Positions 41,255 to 57,049 of a DNA stretch of 64,000 nucleotides are shown here, piece after piece. Made by a program: the position numbers and the translations under genes. How positions within the stretch are numbered: the first letter of the stretch is position 1; every line of letters begins with the position of its first letter. The stretch is taken from NCBI RefSeq assembly GCF_000803265.1, contig NW_014575400.1:1-64000 (forward strand), read 5' to 3'. The notes below the pieces were generated by a model that worked only from the letters and a program-made list of their open reading frames with translations, was not told where the DNA came from and searched no databases. The DNA is from Ordospora colligata OC4. Taxonomy: Eukaryota > Microsporidia > Ordosporidae.

Positions 41255-44185
41255 TCACGTACGGTCGCTTGGCTTCTCCAGCACCACTACGTCACAAAAC
41301 TCCTCAAATAGGTCTTCAGTCCCTAAAGGCGTAATAAGAATCCCTTGAAACCCTTGATCCTTGAAAAACTGCAATAGAAGCTTAATAATATGCTTTCTAT
41401 TCAAATTATCCATGAATACATCAAATTCATCAAGTATCTTAACCGGGCATGGCAAAGATACCCATAATGATAGCAACAGGCAAACACCTGCATATGATCT
41501 CTCTCCTCCAGAAAGCATGCTTCTTCCTCCACATTCCTTGTTTCCATGGACTTTCATTCTGATTTCCAAGGTTCTTTTCTCATGATCAAATTCAAGACAC
41601 CCTTCATATCCTCGATTCTTGGTTGTTCTGGCGAATTCCTCAGATGCATTTTTTGCTATTGTACTTCTAATCAGATTCCTTTTGGCTACTCTTGATTGTA
41701 TATCATTAATAATACCATTAATCTTCTCTTCACATTCATCAATCAAGCAGGCTTTCTTCTTCTTCATCTTTCTTAGACTCTCAAGTGACTTTTGTACATC
41801 GCACTCATCCCTTGAACTTTCGCACATCTCAACTTGTGCTTTTAAACCAGATATTTGTTCTATAATGTCACTTTCTGGTCTTACTGTTAAGATTTCATTC
41901 GTTCCATTGCTTTTCAGCATTATCACTTCTTGTTCATACGCTTCTTTCTCTTTTTTGTACTTTTCATTCAGAACATGCACATCTTCTTTGCATGCATTTC
42001 TTCGCATCTTAGTAGCATCCACTTCACTTACTTGCTTGTCTATCATCTGTTTTAGTTCCATTGTGTTCATCCTTTTCCACTTACGGACAGTCTCATCTTC
42101 TCTCATTAGACTTTCAATCTCATTTCGTATTCCATCCCGCTTTTTTTCAAGTAGATTCATTTGATTTTCTAAACAGCTTATTTCTTCATAAAGTCCATCC
42201 TCACGCACAACTTCCAGTTGTATCTCATACATCCTCTTGGCATTTTCAATCTCAATCTTTAGTGCATTTCCTCGTCTTTTGCATATCTCTATCATCTCAC
42301 TTGTTCTTGCCACCTCTTCTTCAGCTATCTTTAACTTCACCTTGACCTCTCCTTCCTTATGCATTTCTAGTCTCCGAAGCTCTTCCTTACATCTTTCAAG
42401 TCGTTCCTGTGTGTTCTCAAAATACAACTTATCAACTCCTCTTGTAACAAAGTCAGACAACCCTCCCCCAACCATCTTTATCTTATCTCCTTCCTTAGTG
42501 TATGCACACTCAACAAACATTGGTCTTGATCTTATTACCTCATATGCATTCTTTCGACTCTCAATCAGAATCGTTTGCTCGACCGACTGTGTTATTATTA
42601 GGTGATTCATCACCAATGGCTCATCTATCCTCAGAACATCAAGCAGTGTCTTGTACTTCATATTCGATTTGTATTCTAAAACCTTTTCTACTTTTGATGA
42701 TGGCATAGAAATTGGAAAGCTAACCCTATGCTTCCTGAAAATATTCAACAAGATTTCCTTATCTTTCTTATCCGTTGTAATGAATGTCGTCAAGGTATTG
42801 TTGAGGATAATACTGGCTGCTTTCGCCCACATTGGCTCTTTAAGTTTTATTCTTAATCCAATAGGCCCAATTACTTTCTGATTAAATTTTGTTCTGGAGA
42901 TCTCAGCAAGTAGTTCCTTAGTTCCTGGGCCAAAAAAACTTTCTCGATCACTTCTTGAATAAAATTCAATATGCTTTCGTAGCTGAAACATCTTTGCATT
43001 CCTTTCATTCTTCATATCTTCTTCAATAACCGCTATCTTCTTGCATTCTTCATACTTCTCCAGGATTGCTTCCATTGAGTCTTCTAGATTCCTTTGTTCA
43101 ATCATAAGTTCAGAATATTTAGATTCAAGCTGAGGACATTCATTCTGAACCACTCCATTCTGCTTTTCAAAGTCAGAAACTATCTTGGTTTTAAACTCCT
43201 TTGCTGCATTCATCTCTTCGTAATCGTTACAAATCTCTCTGTCCTTTGCTCGGAGCCTTGCAAGAGCATCTGCAATCTCTTCCTTTCTTTTATCTGCCAG
43301 TTTCTTCTTTTCTGCATCTTCATTTTCAATTTCAACTATCATTGCCCGTGCTTCCATAATAGAATGCTCAAGTACGCCAATAGTATTTGCATACTCTTCA
43401 AGCTCATGTTGCTTCTCAACAACCTTTTGATAGAGCTCCTCAGTGACTTTCTTTTTTTGAGCTATTCGCGCCCATTCAATTTCATCCTCCATTGTCTTAA
43501 TTAAATTCTCTATTTCCCTTGAATTCTTGACAATGCTCAAATATCTTTCCTCTTCATCGATCTTGTTTGATATCTCTTCAAGCTCACGCTTCGCATCTTC
43601 AAGAGTTTTTCGTATCGAGTCAGTCTTTGTAGTAGACTCTTCATTCAATCTACAGACCTCATCAATCTCCGTTCCTCTCATAAAAAGCTCATACAATAAT
43701 TCAGGCTGCATCACATTCAAAAACCTTTTTGCATGATCCTGTGTAAGGAAGCTCAATGGATTTTCAAACCTTAATGAAAAAAAATCAAGCAAAAGCTCAA
43801 GATCTTCCCTCCTGACAGACCAGACCTTACGATCATCATTCATAATACTCATAGACGTAGATCGAATCCCAATACGCTTCTCAATCCTAATCCTCTGTCC
43901 AAAAAAATCCTTTTTGAATCCTTTAGTATTATCAAGCACAATTCTCACTATTGCATTCGTTTCGTTATTCTTTATCAGCTCTTTGATGCTGTTTCCACGC
44001 TCAAGATGCTGTGCTCGTTGTCCAAGCACTATTCCAACTGCCGCCATTACTGCACTCTTTCCTGCACCATTGCGTCCAGAAATCACAGTCAAAGGCTTCT
44101 CAAACTTAATCAACAGATGATCATGGCACATAAACCGCACAAGCTCAATTGACACAATCAATCTCCTGCATCTCGCATCATCCAT
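41255..44185 (-). CDS. SMC6: SMC6
   Basis: The 976-aa protein has an N-terminal SMC head with Walker A GRNGAGKS (37-44) in the SMC6 setting RFMCHDHLLIKF, then TQDHAKRFLN as in the Smc6 Q-loop. A long coiled coil flanks a hinge near residues 435-610 (GPIGLRIKLKEPMWAKAASI), and the C-terminal head has signature SGGERSYAGVCLLLSLW near 890 and Walker B ILDEFDVFMD. Smc5/6 helps resolve recombination intermediates and sister chromatid links. Length is close to 1100 in yeast. The longest frame begins with TTG at 44266; the first ATG is 44185. There is no CCC/GGG motif. Confidence 0.93.
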   Translation of the reverse strand: MDDARCRRLIVSIELVRFMCHDHLLIKFEKPLTVISGRNGAGKSAVMAAVGIVLGQRAQHLERGNSIKELIKNNETNAIVRIVLDNTKGFKKDFFGQRIRIEKRIGIRSTSMSIMNDDRKVWSVRREDLELLLDFFSLRFENPLSFLTQDHAKRFLNVMQPELLYELFMRGTEIDEVCRLNEESTTKTDSIRKTLEDAKRELEEISNKIDEEERYLSIVKNSREIENLIKTMEDEIEWARIAQKKKVTEELYQKVVEKQHELEEYANTIGVLEHSIMEARAMIVEIENEDAEKKKLADKRKEEIADALARLRAKDREICNDYEEMNAAKEFKTKIVSDFEKQNGVVQNECPQLESKYSELMIEQRNLEDSMEAILEKYEECKKIAVIEEDMKNERNAKMFQLRKHIEFYSRSDRESFFGPGTKELLAEISRTKFNQKVIGPIGLRIKLKEPMWAKAASIILNNTLTTFITTDKKDKEILLNIFRKHRVSFPISMPSSKVEKVLEYKSNMKYKTLLDVLRIDEPLVMNHLIITQSVEQTILIESRKNAYEVIRSRPMFVECAYTKEGDKIKMVGGGLSDFVTRGVDKLYFENTQERLERCKEELRRLEMHKEGEVKVKLKIAEEEVARTSEMIEICKRRGNALKIEIENAKRMYEIQLEVVREDGLYEEISCLENQMNLLEKKRDGIRNEIESLMREDETVRKWKRMNTMELKQMIDKQVSEVDATKMRRNACKEDVHVLNEKYKKEKEAYEQEVIMLKSNGTNEILTVRPESDIIEQISGLKAQVEMCESSRDECDVQKSLESLRKMKKKKACLIDECEEKINGIINDIQSRVAKRNLIRSTIAKNASEEFARTTKNRGYEGCLEFDHEKRTLEIRMKVHGNKECGGRSMLSGGERSYAGVCLLLSLWVSLPCPVKILDEFDVFMDNLNRKHIIKLLLQFFKDQGFQGILITPLGTEDLFEEFCDVVVLEKPSDRT

Positions 44186-47221: not shown

Positions 47222-48214
47222 CTATTTATTATCCATCTCTTGGCCATCGATCTCTACTTGCATCAAATTACTGTGCTTGTCTATGGCTTGTATATTCGCA
47301 AGAAATGCATTTCGGATATTGATGGATTGCTTCTCACCCAGCAACCTGAAGTTCTTATTTTCCTCATCCCATACCTGAAGCTCCTTCAATTTATTGCCAT
47401 GATCTCTCTTTATGAACGACAGCAATCCAGTTATACTCTTGTATTGTTTTGATATACACCTTGATGCATTCTTACCTATTCCAGGTATGTGCTGAAGTAG
47501 ATTCTGTAGATGCATTGTCTTCTGTGCCATTCCAAAACTCTTAGTTTTTGGGACATACGTCTTTTTGCTGCTCAGATGACTCATGATGCCTCTCAATGAA
47601 TCAGTCATGTCGTAAGATCCATCTACAAATATGTAGTTCTGTCCATTTGTAATCTGTGAATGATACAGCTTCCTCATCTGCTCACTGTAAACAGAGCTTT
47701 GTCTCACATACCTTGTACCATTCTTCAAAGCTTCTCTGTATTCTCTGTCTTCTTTTGCTTTGCACTTTACTCTGCATTTATTTCTATTGATCACAATCGA
47801 CATCTTGTATATTGAACTTTCAAAAGAGTCGCTTTCAAATTCAACAACACCGACAACACATTCCTCAGTTTCATCATCACATCTAATCACTTTCATAACT
47901 CTCTCATGTGTTATACTGTACCTTAGTTTCACTTCTTCAGTTCTATCCACAAATCCTATAAGAAGCCCACAAAACACAAAGTAATGTTCTGGCCAAGTGA
48001 AGTCTCCAGATGCATTTCCATTCATAGTCATATCACTCTGCTTCTTGTCGTCATTCATGCAAGTCCCAATTACACTAGGAATATCCAGAATCGAAATAGA
48101 GCTATCCGTATCCATAAAGTCGCATTTTCCTGCACTCACTCTCAAAACTTCATCTATCAGCACATCTTCTTCATTAGTACTCCATGCTGCTTTTTGTGTG
48201 TCACTCTCCTTCAT
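47222..48214 (-). CDS. Helix-hairpin-helix protein, possibly Eme1/ERCC4-family like
   Basis: The 330-aa protein has an acidic N-terminal part and a middle beta-rich region containing YIFVDGSYDMTDSLRGIMSH. The C-terminal helix-hairpin-helix segment is MHLQNLLQHIPGIGKNASRC, with the IPGIGK hairpin typical of ERCC4/Mus81-type DNA-binding tails, then ITGLLSFIKRDHG. No ERKxxxD nuclease motif is visible, which would fit a non-catalytic partner such as Eme1 or an inactive ERCC4-like protein. It lies just before the BRCA2-like gene on the same strand. The name is tentative. GGG, reading CAGGGATTGG, lies 11 bases before the ATG. Confidence 0.5.
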   Translation of the reverse strand: MKESDTQKAAWSTNEEDVLIDEVLRVSAGKCDFMDTDSSISILDIPSVIGTCMNDDKKQSDMTMNGNASGDFTWPEHYFVFCGLLIGFVDRTEEVKLRYSITHERVMKVIRCDDETEECVVGVVEFESDSFESSIYKMSIVINRNKCRVKCKAKEDREYREALKNGTRYVRQSSVYSEQMRKLYHSQITNGQNYIFVDGSYDMTDSLRGIMSHLSSKKTYVPKTKSFGMAQKTMHLQNLLQHIPGIGKNASRCISKQYKSITGLLSFIKRDHGNKLKELQVWDEENKNFRLLGEKQSINIRNAFLANIQAIDKHSNLMQVEIDGQEMDNK

Positions 48215-48238: not shown

Positions 48239-49732
48239 CTATTTAATTTCCAGTCTAGGTTTTTTCCCACTTTTGCTTTTTACTACTCGCATGTAAGTTC
48301 TTCTTGTGCTAACAAAATGTTTCTCCTTAGTCATTCTCTTCATCGACGGAGTCAAACACACCATTCTAAGAACCTGGCCCTCTTCAACACCAAACGTAGG
48401 ATTCCACCATGTCACTATGCACTCTCCACTCTCATCCTTAACAACAAACTTAGTGTATGCATTGATCTTCAAGTCATTCGAGCAAAACACTCTCTCTGCT
48501 TTCATTGCCAACTCCTGTATCTTATCAAGCTCGGGTTCAATATCATCCGTAATGTTACTGTAATTCTCTACCTTCACCCGATACTTCGTTTCAATCACAT
48601 TAGTAACACATCCTTGAATACAGCTAATAGTTCCTCCACTAGCATTAACATCGCATATCCTGACTCGGAAGCACTTCTTCTTCTTAAATCCAAGCTTACG
48701 CTTCAAAAAAGTCACTTGGACTCCATTCGAATGAAACATCAGTGATGCACCAGAAATCTCAAAAATTGACTTCGGCTCACATACTAACTCAGTTCCAAAA
48801 ACCCGCAGCCTTGATCCGGCATAGATCTCCCCACTGCATATCCTTTGCTTCAATACTTCATCACACCGCACATATACGCTATATGATCCATCAAATACTT
48901 CAATACATTCCTCATCAATCCTTATCACAATGACAATCATGTATCTCCATGATGGCTCATCTCCTTCAACCATTCTCCTCAGAACAGAATATTCATTGTC
49001 AAGTCGAATCCTCATCTGCTCTTCTATCGCATCAGTTAATGCTGCAAAATCTTTTGTCTTATCTTGCATGAAAAAATATATCCAAGACCACTTGAACTGC
49101 ATAAAAACTCGATTCTCATCCTCCTTAATAAACCTTGTTTTGATCTCCTCATAGACATCCTTCATTTTGTATTCATCGCATTGCTCCTCTTCTTGCTCAT
49201 GAATGCCACAATCAATTTTATTCATCGTTACTTCATTAGCGTTGCAACCATCTTCGCTAAAAACCTGAAGTACTGCATTCACACTTCCTTTTCTAACATT
49301 AATTCTCTTCATGGACCCAGTCGTAAACCCAGAAAACATCATCTCATCACACTTGCGATCCAGATCTATCCTACTAAAGTGTAAAGACTCATCAGCACAT
49401 ATAACTGCTTCTTTATCATCACATGCATTCCTTTCATTACTTTCATTGCCATCTTGACTTTCATCACCCTCTAAAAACCCATCCTCAGCATCCGATTCAC
49501 TTACATTCATCATAGAAACATCAGCGCTGCCTTCAAAATCAGATCCAATTCCGCAATCTGTTTGATTGCTTTCCAAATCCTCAAGAAATTCATTTGTTGC
49601 ATAATCATATCTATCAGAGTCTAACACAAAAGCCTCGGAACTCGAGCTGTTCCAAGATGCATCAACCTCTGTGTTTGTCTCCATACTACTGCGGAAGAAG
49701 TCCTCAAAGTCAACCTCAGAATCCTTCTCCAT
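48239..49732 (-). CDS. BRH2: BRCA2-like recombination mediator with one BRC-like repeat
   Basis: The 497-aa protein has an acidic N-terminus, then a BRC-type repeat at residues 131-162 (FSGFTTGSMKRIN ... SVNAVLQVFSED), compared with the consensus F-x-TA-x-GK-x-I-x-V-S...F. In this copy the FxxA core is FTTG. A helical domain follows near 205-265 with FKWSWIYFFM and then BRCA2 OB1/OB2: VFDGSYSVYVRCDEVLKQRI, GEIYAGSRLRVFGTELV and KRKLGF correspond to LTDGWYAV, GQKI..GAELV and SRLGF. It should load Rad51 onto single-stranded DNA. The first ATG is at 49732, with CCC six bases upstream; the longer frame starts with TTG. Confidence 0.75.
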   Translation of the reverse strand: MEKDSEVDFEDFFRSSMETNTEVDASWNSSSSEAFVLDSDRYDYATNEFLEDLESNQTDCGIGSDFEGSADVSMMNVSESDAEDGFLEGDESQDGNESNERNACDDKEAVICADESLHFSRIDLDRKCDEMMFSGFTTGSMKRINVRKGSVNAVLQVFSEDGCNANEVTMNKIDCGIHEQEEEQCDEYKMKDVYEEIKTRFIKEDENRVFMQFKWSWIYFFMQDKTKDFAALTDAIEEQMRIRLDNEYSVLRRMVEGDEPSWRYMIVIVIRIDEECIEVFDGSYSVYVRCDEVLKQRICSGEIYAGSRLRVFGTELVCEPKSIFEISGASLMFHSNGVQVTFLKRKLGFKKKKCFRVRICDVNASGGTISCIQGCVTNVIETKYRVKVENYSNITDDIEPELDKIQELAMKAERVFCSNDLKINAYTKFVVKDESGECIVTWWNPTFGVEEGQVLRMVCLTPSMKRMTKEKHFVSTRRTYMRVVKSKSGKKPRLEIK

Positions 49733-55360: not shown

Positions 55361-57049
55361 TTACTTTGAATGTCTTGTTTTACCATTGATTTTTATCACT
55401 TCTTTGACTGCATAAATCGCATTATTGTAGCAAGTCTCGTCTAAAAACATTTTCTTTATATTGATGTTTGCAAGAGGCTTTGAGCCTAATGAGGCCTCCA
55501 GCAGAAGAATTACCGCATATGCATCGTCCTCAGATGTGCACTCAGAGTTCATAAGCTTTGAGTGTGCCTCAGTAAGCCTAACAAGACTCTCCAACATTCT
55601 AATTGTGTTGAATTCGTTAATTCCATCGGTTCTTCTTTTGTAGTGATAATAACCAAGCAGGATTTCATTCAGATCCTCAGAAATCACATTATTTTGTTTT
55701 CTGACCATTGATATGTAATTCCGAAGCATTGTTCCAATCCAATAAGTCATTTCGCCTTTATCTACACTATCAATACCTGACTTTCTGCTCAAGATCTTTT
55801 CTGCAACAAGTGTGTCGAATTCTTCATTTTTGCCATCAAACATTCCAAAAATCAGATCAAATCTACTGATTAACGGTGTTGTGATTGTCGTGTTTTCAGA
55901 AACACTTTTGTTCAAATCGTAGCGATACTTCGTGCCTGCCGATGCAATAACAGAACACCTTGTGTTCAAGGATGACACCATTCCTGCTTTTGCTATACTG
56001 AGTGTTTGCTGCTCCATTGCTTCAAGTAATCCATTCTTCTCGTTCAGCCTGAGTTTGTTGAATTCATCGATACAGCATATGCCTGTGTCTGCAAGCACCA
56101 GAGCACCTGCTTCTAATGTCCATTCCTTCCCTTGTTTGACTGCACACGTAGTAAGACCTGCTTGAGTTGTTCCTGTACCATTAATAAGGACAGCAGGCGA
56201 CACAAGGCGAATGCATGTCTTTAGCATGTGAGACTTGCCCATCCCTGCATCTCCAACCAGAAGAACATGTGTATTACTGCGTGTAGATTTGCCATCAGGC
56301 TTTCCACTGCCACTGATCAATGCTAAAAGCAGTCCTAGTTTAACATTCTCAAATCCCTCAATCTCCTCAGCAAATGACCTTATTAAAAAAAGTCGTCTTT
56401 CAAAACGATCGAGCTCCTCCAGTTTTAGAATGCAGTTTCTACTGAACAAATCATTCATAGACTCTTCTTTATGCTTGTACACGTCTAATGCATGCATATA
56501 CATCGATCCAAGCATTTGCTCTCCTGCTCTAAATATTTTCCATTTTGTAAGTATCACGCCAGTTATTAACAATTTGTCTCCAGGATAAAACTTACCTGCG
56601 AGCTCCTTTTCAAGAACGATCTCCAGTGTCTCAGACATCGACTCAGAGTTTCCAATGTCTTGTAGTCTTATTCTCTGACTGGGTATAGGCTCTCCAAAGC
56701 TTCTTTTGTCTTTGACAACAGAGGATCCGCATGAATCACAGGATGTTTTTTGCTTTTTATTCCCAGACAGCTTTGCATATGTTTTTGAATTACATTTCAG
56801 ACAAACCATTTCATTAGAAACATTTCTTATAAGAACCTCATAAACCTTGATTACTGTCCCTTCTACAGTAACTATTTTATTGATGTTTTTACTATTCAAT
56901 GCTCTACTTGAAAATAATGCACATGGAATGTTCTTGAGAGTCTTCCTGTATACATCAGGATGTGCAGATACATCAACAGCGATGCTGTTTGCAAGCTCTG
57001 GATTTCGTTCGCACAGCTGAATCAAATCAATTTCGTTTTGAACTTCCAT
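55361..57049 (-). CDS. MCM9: MCM9-like helicase
   Basis: The 562-aa protein has an N-terminal MCM domain with a zinc finger (CLKC ... CDSC, near 80-105). The AAA core has Walker A GDAGMGKS, then EWTLEAGALVLADTGICCID plus EFN (Walker B) near residue 328, EAMEQQTLSIAKAG, and Arg finger SRFDL near 395. The WTLEAGALVLAD and LESLVRLTEAHSKLM patterns are closer to MCM9 than to MCM2-7 or MCM8. MCM9 works with MCM8 in homologous recombination; no MCM8 is in the window. Human MCM9 is about 1140 aa because of its long disordered tail, which is absent. The ATG at 57049 follows an in-frame TTG at 57052. Confidence 0.8.
   Translation of the reverse strand: MEVQNEIDLIQLCERNPELANSIAVDVSAHPDVYRKTLKNIPCALFSSRALNSKNINKIVTVEGTVIKVYEVLIRNVSNEMVCLKCNSKTYAKLSGNKKQKTSCDSCGSSVVKDKRSFGEPIPSQRIRLQDIGNSESMSETLEIVLEKELAGKFYPGDKLLITGVILTKWKIFRAGEQMLGSMYMHALDVYKHKEESMNDLFSRNCILKLEELDRFERRLFLIRSFAEEIEGFENVKLGLLLALISGSGKPDGKSTRSNTHVLLVGDAGMGKSHMLKTCIRLVSPAVLINGTGTTQAGLTTCAVKQGKEWTLEAGALVLADTGICCIDEFNKLRLNEKNGLLEAMEQQTLSIAKAGMVSSLNTRCSVIASAGTKYRYDLNKSVSENTTITTPLISRFDLIFGMFDGKNEEFDTLVAEKILSRKSGIDSVDKGEMTYWIGTMLRNYISMVRKQNNVISEDLNEILLGYYHYKRRTDGINEFNTIRMLESLVRLTEAHSKLMNSECTSEDDAYAVILLLEASLGSKPLANINIKKMFLDETCYNNAIYAVKEVIKINGKTRHSK

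Follow-up and report, generated by a model that had tools for sequence, protein, structure and literature searches.

The microsporidian Ordospora colligata, a gut parasite of Daphnia, possesses a real and conserved ortholog of BRCA2, which is strongly reduced and of the Brh2 type known from fungi. The gene was found in the first 64,000 nucleotides of contig NW_014575400.1 (the window, meaning this whole stretch of DNA). Its product of 497 residues, referred to here as the window protein, very probably serves as a Rad51 mediator. The family itself is known; the protein is a reduced representative of it and does not amount to a novel type of system. In the NCBI taxonomy, O. colligata belongs to Microsporidia, filed under 'Fungi incertae sedis', family Ordosporidae. 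An earlier interpretation based on the letters and open reading frames of the window (the sequence-only reading) had described a BRCA2-like protein with a single BRC-type repeat, and this identification was correct.

48239..49732, (-) strand: BRCA2/Brh2-like gene, an intact ATG-to-stop open reading frame of 497 residues with an OB1 match at E=2.5e-12 and 11 homologs.

A phmmer search yielded 12 proteins, the window protein included. The homolog from O. pajunii is 75% identical and carries the entry name 'putative BRCA2 domain-containing protein'. Four more come from named species of Encephalitozoon, a snail assembly contributes one, and five further proteins complete the set. All 12 are 461-500 residues long, begin with an invariant Met1 and have invariant residues at the BRC unit and at both OB folds. 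A profile search for remoter microsporidian homologs (word-based, of limited sensitivity) returned the same 12 proteins. Candidates were restricted to 0.55-1.75 times the query length, and absence from other microsporidia is beyond the reach of this search. The uniform length and the invariant residues argue against the idea that the gene is a BRCA2 remnant decaying under relaxed constraint while Rad52 does the mediator work. Such decay would fit a protein far smaller than basidiomycete Brh2, without OB3 and apparently without a tower, and matches to Rad52 as well as Rad51 (P0013) are present in the genome. Since only homologs of similar length were kept, decayed copies could have escaped notice; still, we give the remnant explanation little credence.

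Two homologs are named 'integral membrane protein' in their source, which does not fit their domains. One family member with this misnomer, P0010, is labelled Biomphalaria pfeifferi and is probably a microsporidian contaminant of the snail assembly.

The OB1 profile PF09103 matched the window protein with 47.2 bits (cut-off 25.6) and exceeded the cut-off in 12/12 family members. A scan of the whole O. colligata genome (2,279,121 bases, 13 contigs) gave a single PF09103 match, which is the 497-residue gene (E 6.7e-13). Some database entries are named 'BRCA2 OB1 domain-containing', and thus OB1 had already been picked up by automated annotation. AlphaFold2 models were analyzed for two orthologs, the window protein and the Encephalitozoon cuniculi protein. 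In Foldseek searches three BRCA2-DSS1 structures took the top three places in both lists, among 551 matches for the window model (best E 3.5e-12) and among 805 for the E. cuniculi model (9.6e-13). Outside residues 248-369 and 255-357 of the respective models, these lists leave other families possible. The C-terminal half contains the following features:

48968..49165, (-) strand: helical-domain-like region, residues 190-255, with modelled helices; the Pfam helical model, with 187 positions, is far longer.
48683..48988, (-) strand: OB1, residues 249-350, Pfam PF09103.
48263..48634, (-) strand: predicted OB2, residues 367-490, with model strands at 369-485 and an alignment to 1mje_A up to residue 491.
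48500..48541, (-) strand: short modelled helix at the tower position, residues 398-411, the sole helix of at least 4 residues between OB2 strands 391-395 and 421-433.
48404..48406, (-) strand: Trp443, candidate Trp for stacking on single-stranded DNA; W442, W443 and P445 are invariant in 12/12.

The sequence-only reading had assigned this half to a helical domain plus OB1 and OB2. OB1 was confirmed by Pfam and OB2 is supported by the models, while the helical part consists of modelled helices (190-200, 206-222, 229-245 and 250-255) that the Pfam helical profile did not match. In the window model the alignment to 1iyj_B begins at residue 186, and those to 1mje_A and 1miu_A start only at 248. 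For the E. cuniculi model, the alignments to the three BRCA2 chains all cover the helices, starting at its residues 187-194. An OB2 fold following OB1 is assigned with moderate confidence from the models. A profile of 11 OB2 pieces weakly matched the archaeal RPA OB domain 3dm3_A (E=0.031), whose Trp aligns with W443. OB2 lies close to the C-terminus, and the model has no OB3. OB3 does not define the family, as fungal BRCA2 members without it are described in PMC10684384. OB2 also seems to be without a tower: at this site both models have about 25 residues between OB2 strands, with a single helix of 14 residues. A tower is likewise not defining, as C. elegans BRC-2 is without one (PMC3240595). 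A basic residue, Lys or Arg, occupies position 428 in 12/12 proteins. W443 and position 428 are candidate counterparts of human W2990 and K2971, judged by eye against the human sequence. In a mammalian mini-BRCA2, these two OB2 residues contact single-stranded DNA (PMC3240595). The low-scoring Pox_T4_C and Matrix_Paramyxo_C hits on the window protein were below cut-off and were disregarded.

The BRC unit lies in the N-terminal half of the protein:

49253..49342, (-) strand: single BRC unit, residues 131-160, based on a PF00634 match below cut-off, the alignment to BRC4 and a modelled hairpin and helix.
49316..49327, (-) strand: FTTG tetrad at the FxxA position, residues 136-139; F136, T138 and G139 are invariant in 12/12.

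In a six-frame scan of the genome PF00634 gave a single match (49253-49336, E=0.048), consistent with the one BRC unit of the sequence-only reading. This match scored 15.4 bits, below the cut-off of 20.3, and the window protein itself gave no PF00634 match at E<=10 in hmmscan. Across the family, nine of 12 proteins matched at E<=10. Scanned singly, seven of them (P0004-P0010) exceeded 20.3 bits; P0011 (17.9 bits) and P0002 (11.9 bits) stayed below. P0003 had no match, and P0012 had none at E<=1. BRC membership is therefore observed for the ortholog family, and it is mainly because the orthologs pass that the sub-threshold window copy, the sole match in the genome, is assigned as a BRC. Over 29 residues (132-160) the alignment to human BRC4 in 1n0w_B needs no gap. 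The ungapped BLOSUM62 score of 47 was reached by one of 5000 protein shuffles (13.0 +/- 5.1), and the segment ranked first among 1078 six-frame segments of the window, where the runner-up scored 30. Furthermore, a profile built from the whole family without selection retrieved human BRC4 (E=0.036), with the alignment falling on the proposed BRC. It also retrieved BRCA2-DSS1 chains (1.7e-8) and, with poorer scores, TRIM25 coiled coils. The unit forms a conserved island (mean conservation 0.71, compared to 0.43 N-terminal and 0.34 C-terminal of it), and a hairpin and helix were modelled there in both orthologs. The BRC unit probably grips Rad51.

The sequence-only reading had noted FTTG in place of FxxA, and indeed the tetrad reads FxTG in 12/12 orthologs with the Gly fixed; S134, G135 and S150 are likewise invariant. 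The residue after the tetrad (+1) is Ser in 11/12 and Asn in P0011. The older BRC consensus Fx[ST][AG]xG (Lo et al. 2003, as quoted in PMC10684384) is fitted by all 12 proteins in its Fx[ST][AG] part. Its closing Gly is missing in all of them: the position two past the tetrad Gly holds Met, Leu, Arg, Lys or Asn. The full consensus is not defining either, as Nl_BRC3 of Naganishia also deviates from it (PMC10684384). The Gly change, to which the sequence-only reading had given special weight, turns out to have precedents: FxxG is stated for fungal BRCA2 (PMC10684384) and also occurs in Leishmania (PMC9162458). As the consensus permits Gly and FxxG is stated for fungal BRCA2, the main departure from a textbook BRC is the missing Gly that follows. 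The exchange of Ala for Gly raised the dissociation constant of a tetrapeptide from 280 to 1590 uM, a cost of about 6-fold (PMC4855620), and cost Leishmania LiBRC1 three-fold in affinity (PMC9162458). FxxG thus weakens Rad51 binding without abolishing it, at least in the tetrapeptide and in Leishmania. Introducing Ala into LiBRC2 brought no substantial gain in affinity, and the authors draw attention to the +1 residue, Arg (PMC9162458).

Rad51 itself was compared within the best 120 of 7132 matches. The oligomerisation motif of O. colligata Rad51 is FTTA. Three Rad51s of this set (P0051, P0071 and P0072) have FxxG as their own motif, and so Gly seems to be tolerated by that pocket. A compensating Rad51 change for the lost methyl group was considered and rejected as specific. 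Positions 168 and 189 (our human numbering; no mention of them was found in PMC8219027), taken as pocket residues, are Ser and Ile in O. colligata, and the commonest residues in the set are Pro and Val. Ile189 is found in 56/120, including Nosema and Enterocytozoonidae, where BRCA2 was not found. Since the pocket changes are common to microsporidia without a BRCA2 match, no co-evolution is claimed. PF08423 gave a single match at E<=10 among the candidates from the initial search, with no second Rad51 or paralog. For E. cuniculi, a table of 2011 gives one RAD51 paralogue and no DMC1 (PMC3170485).

The same mediator might hold Rad51 in a Leishmania-like manner, in which an extended N-terminal hairpin gives most of the affinity and compensates for FxxG while the LFDE contact is largely lost. 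In all 12 proteins F136 is preceded by Gly at -1 and Ser at -2, with F/Y at -3 and M/V/I at -4. The residues of Leishmania BRC1 at -4 and -2 are Val and Thr, and for Trypanosoma and Plasmodium repeats the Discussion of the same paper gives T at -2, with V or L at -4 (PMC9162458). In addition, Tyr205/Met251 of the LFDE pocket are Leu/Ser in Leishmania RAD51 (PMC9162458) and Ile/Ser in O. colligata Rad51. However, Ile205 is the commonest residue in the best 120 of 7132 Rad51s (56) and Ser251 occurs in 24, including lineages without a BRCA2 match, so this pocket change is not specific. The human numbering moreover hangs on F166 as its only anchor, and this weakens the case. The F of LFDE is also retained in 11/12 orthologs. 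We regard the Leishmania-like mode as plausible but, on balance, not the favoured one.

Several observations weigh against a BRCA2-type mediator. Both models are weak, with a mean predicted local distance difference test (pLDDT) score of 51.2 for the window protein and 49.6 for the E. cuniculi protein, and predicted template modelling scores of 0.31 and 0.29, respectively; at the BRC, pLDDT is under 50 in both. The helical domain PF09169 was not matched in a search without a positive control, and TRIM25 coiled-coil chains weakly match the helical stretch. These TRIM25 matches (E from 0.00035) were taken as chance. The structural fit of OB1 to RPA70N nearly equals that to BRCA2, and the OB2-piece profile matched no BRCA2 chain, so that sequence ties OB2 only to RPA, and weakly. 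Regarding the BRC, the window copy is below the Pfam cut-off, and PF00634 found a sub-threshold match in a control genome as well (E. coli, out of 14 controls). A 51-residue BRC piece alone found BRC4 at E=1.4, ranking behind an unrelated interferon chain (0.24). The LFDE end is partly kept, with F in 11/12 and the final acid in 3/12. Finally, DSS1 was not found with PF05160 and two motif patterns, a search that had no working positive control. Nevertheless, an RPA-like OB-fold DNA-binding protein with an accidental BRC-like stretch, and no Rad51 mediator, is very improbable: the cut-off of the BRCA2-specific PF09103 is passed by 12/12 and that of BRC by 7/12 proteins, and BRCA2 structures lead both Foldseek lists.

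The data show homology, the order of the domains, conservation and a single copy found in the genome, whereas Rad51 binding, binding of single-stranded DNA and hand-over are inferred. As a fungal-type BRCA2 mediator, the protein would act as follows. Its long N-terminal part, modelled as nearly structureless, would carry the one BRC, which would bind a Rad51 monomer at the site used by the FTTA motif of Rad51 itself. The C-terminal helical-OB1-OB2 block would bind single-stranded DNA, probably via Trp443 of OB2, and Rad51 would thereby be brought onto RPA-coated DNA. With FTTG against FTTA in Rad51, the BRC is expected to bind the pocket less tightly than the motif of Rad51 itself, which should allow easy hand-over to the growing filament. 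The simplest reading would be delivery of Rad51 monomers to single-stranded DNA, nearer to BRC-2 or to an artificial BRC-RPA fusion than to the junction-acting full BRCA2. A bolder proposal is that Rad51 is loaded, perhaps without DSS1, by a BRCA2 that naturally has no tower, two OB folds and just one BRC, whose FxxG is fixed in the lineage, in nuclear genomes that are among the smallest. We put this forward tentatively and consider it rather unlikely; if true, the tower, OB3, multiple repeats and the alanine of FxxA would be jointly dispensable.

Homologous recombination in E. cuniculi was doubted in a repair inventory of 2007, as more than half of the yeast pathway proteins were missing (PMC1851970). 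This inventory used yeast as reference, and neither 'BRCA' nor 'Brh2' occurs in its text. In Ascomycota, no BRCA2 homologs were identified according to PMC10684384. Many other repair parts that had been missing were recovered in a structural-homology survey of 2022 (PMC9053307). The main texts of three repair surveys covering microsporidia (PMC1851970, PMC9053307 and PMC12134460) do not contain 'BRCA', and the text passages of PMC13174016, PMC11061109 and PMC3170485 report no microsporidian BRCA2. Against novelty, PMC10684384 assigns some 250 of its homologs to 'fungi incertae sedis', the NCBI group that also holds Microsporidia. Less known are the invariant Gly in 12/12, the apparent loss of the tower, the failure to find DSS1 (by a search lacking a working control) and the absence of BRCA2 from the main texts of the three repair surveys. 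A BRCA2-type mediator would help to close the recombination gap of E. cuniculi. With 497 residues, the protein is small enough to be purified whole and is a natural counterpart of engineered mini-BRCA2s. In an engineered mini-BRCA2, a single BRC weakens activity and deletion of the tower abolishes it; in PALB2-binding midi-BRCA2s tower deletion costs only about half (PMC3240595).

Outside the BRC and the C-terminal block, one further part of the protein is conserved:

49685..49732, (-) strand: N-terminal island, residues 1-16, mean conservation 0.77 with 3/16 invariant (residues 17-130, 0.43).

This island is acidic-aromatic, with a conservation close to that of the BRC, and may bind RPA or another partner. 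On the same strand, 24 bases downstream of the gene, lies a 330-residue open reading frame (47222-48214, (-) strand) with no Pfam family and no PDB match below E=0.46. Its stretch LLQHIPGIGKNAS has, by eye, the look of a helix-hairpin-helix, and our guess would be an EME1/Mms4-like nuclease partner. PF21292, searched for this EME1/MUS81 idea, was unmatched in the genome, and one control genome matched it below cut-off. Further genes of the window encode an SMC-family protein of 976 residues with N-terminal and hinge domains (41255-44185, (-) strand) and an MCM helicase-like protein of only 562 residues (55361-57049, (-) strand).

Among known systems, the window protein resembles Ustilago maydis Brh2 and Naganishia BRCA2, which also combine OB1 and OB2 without OB3; their helical domain has a helical-domain-like region as its modelled counterpart in the window protein. 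BRC repeats are few there too, with one in Ustilago and three in Naganishia. They are much larger, with 1,075 and 1,193 residues. The Naganishia model has a tower and DSS1 is known in Naganishia (PMC10684384); in O. colligata no tower was seen, and DSS1 was not found by the search without a working control. One BRC and two OB folds are also given for U. maydis Brh2 in PMC8121103. C. elegans BRC-2 resembles the window protein in being very small, tower-less and equipped with a single BRC (PMC8121103, PMC3240595). In contrast, it has one OB fold, which is described as nearer to RPA (PMC8121103), while the O. colligata protein has two, with an OB1 of BRCA2 type. With 394 residues, BRC-2 is also the smaller protein, which takes from the window protein the place of natural minimal example that the sequence-only reading had given it. 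In Leishmania infantum, LiBRC2 has a natural FxxG, and the hairpin residues of LiBRC1 at -2 and -4 are similar in kind (PMC9162458). L. infantum BRCA2, however, has two repeats, and LiBRC2 is weak with Arg at +1, unlike the Ser of the O. colligata family. Human BRC4 (1n0w) shares the gapless alignment, with GFxT and the LFDE Phe in common, but differs in having FxxA and the later consensus Gly that is replaced in all 12 orthologs.
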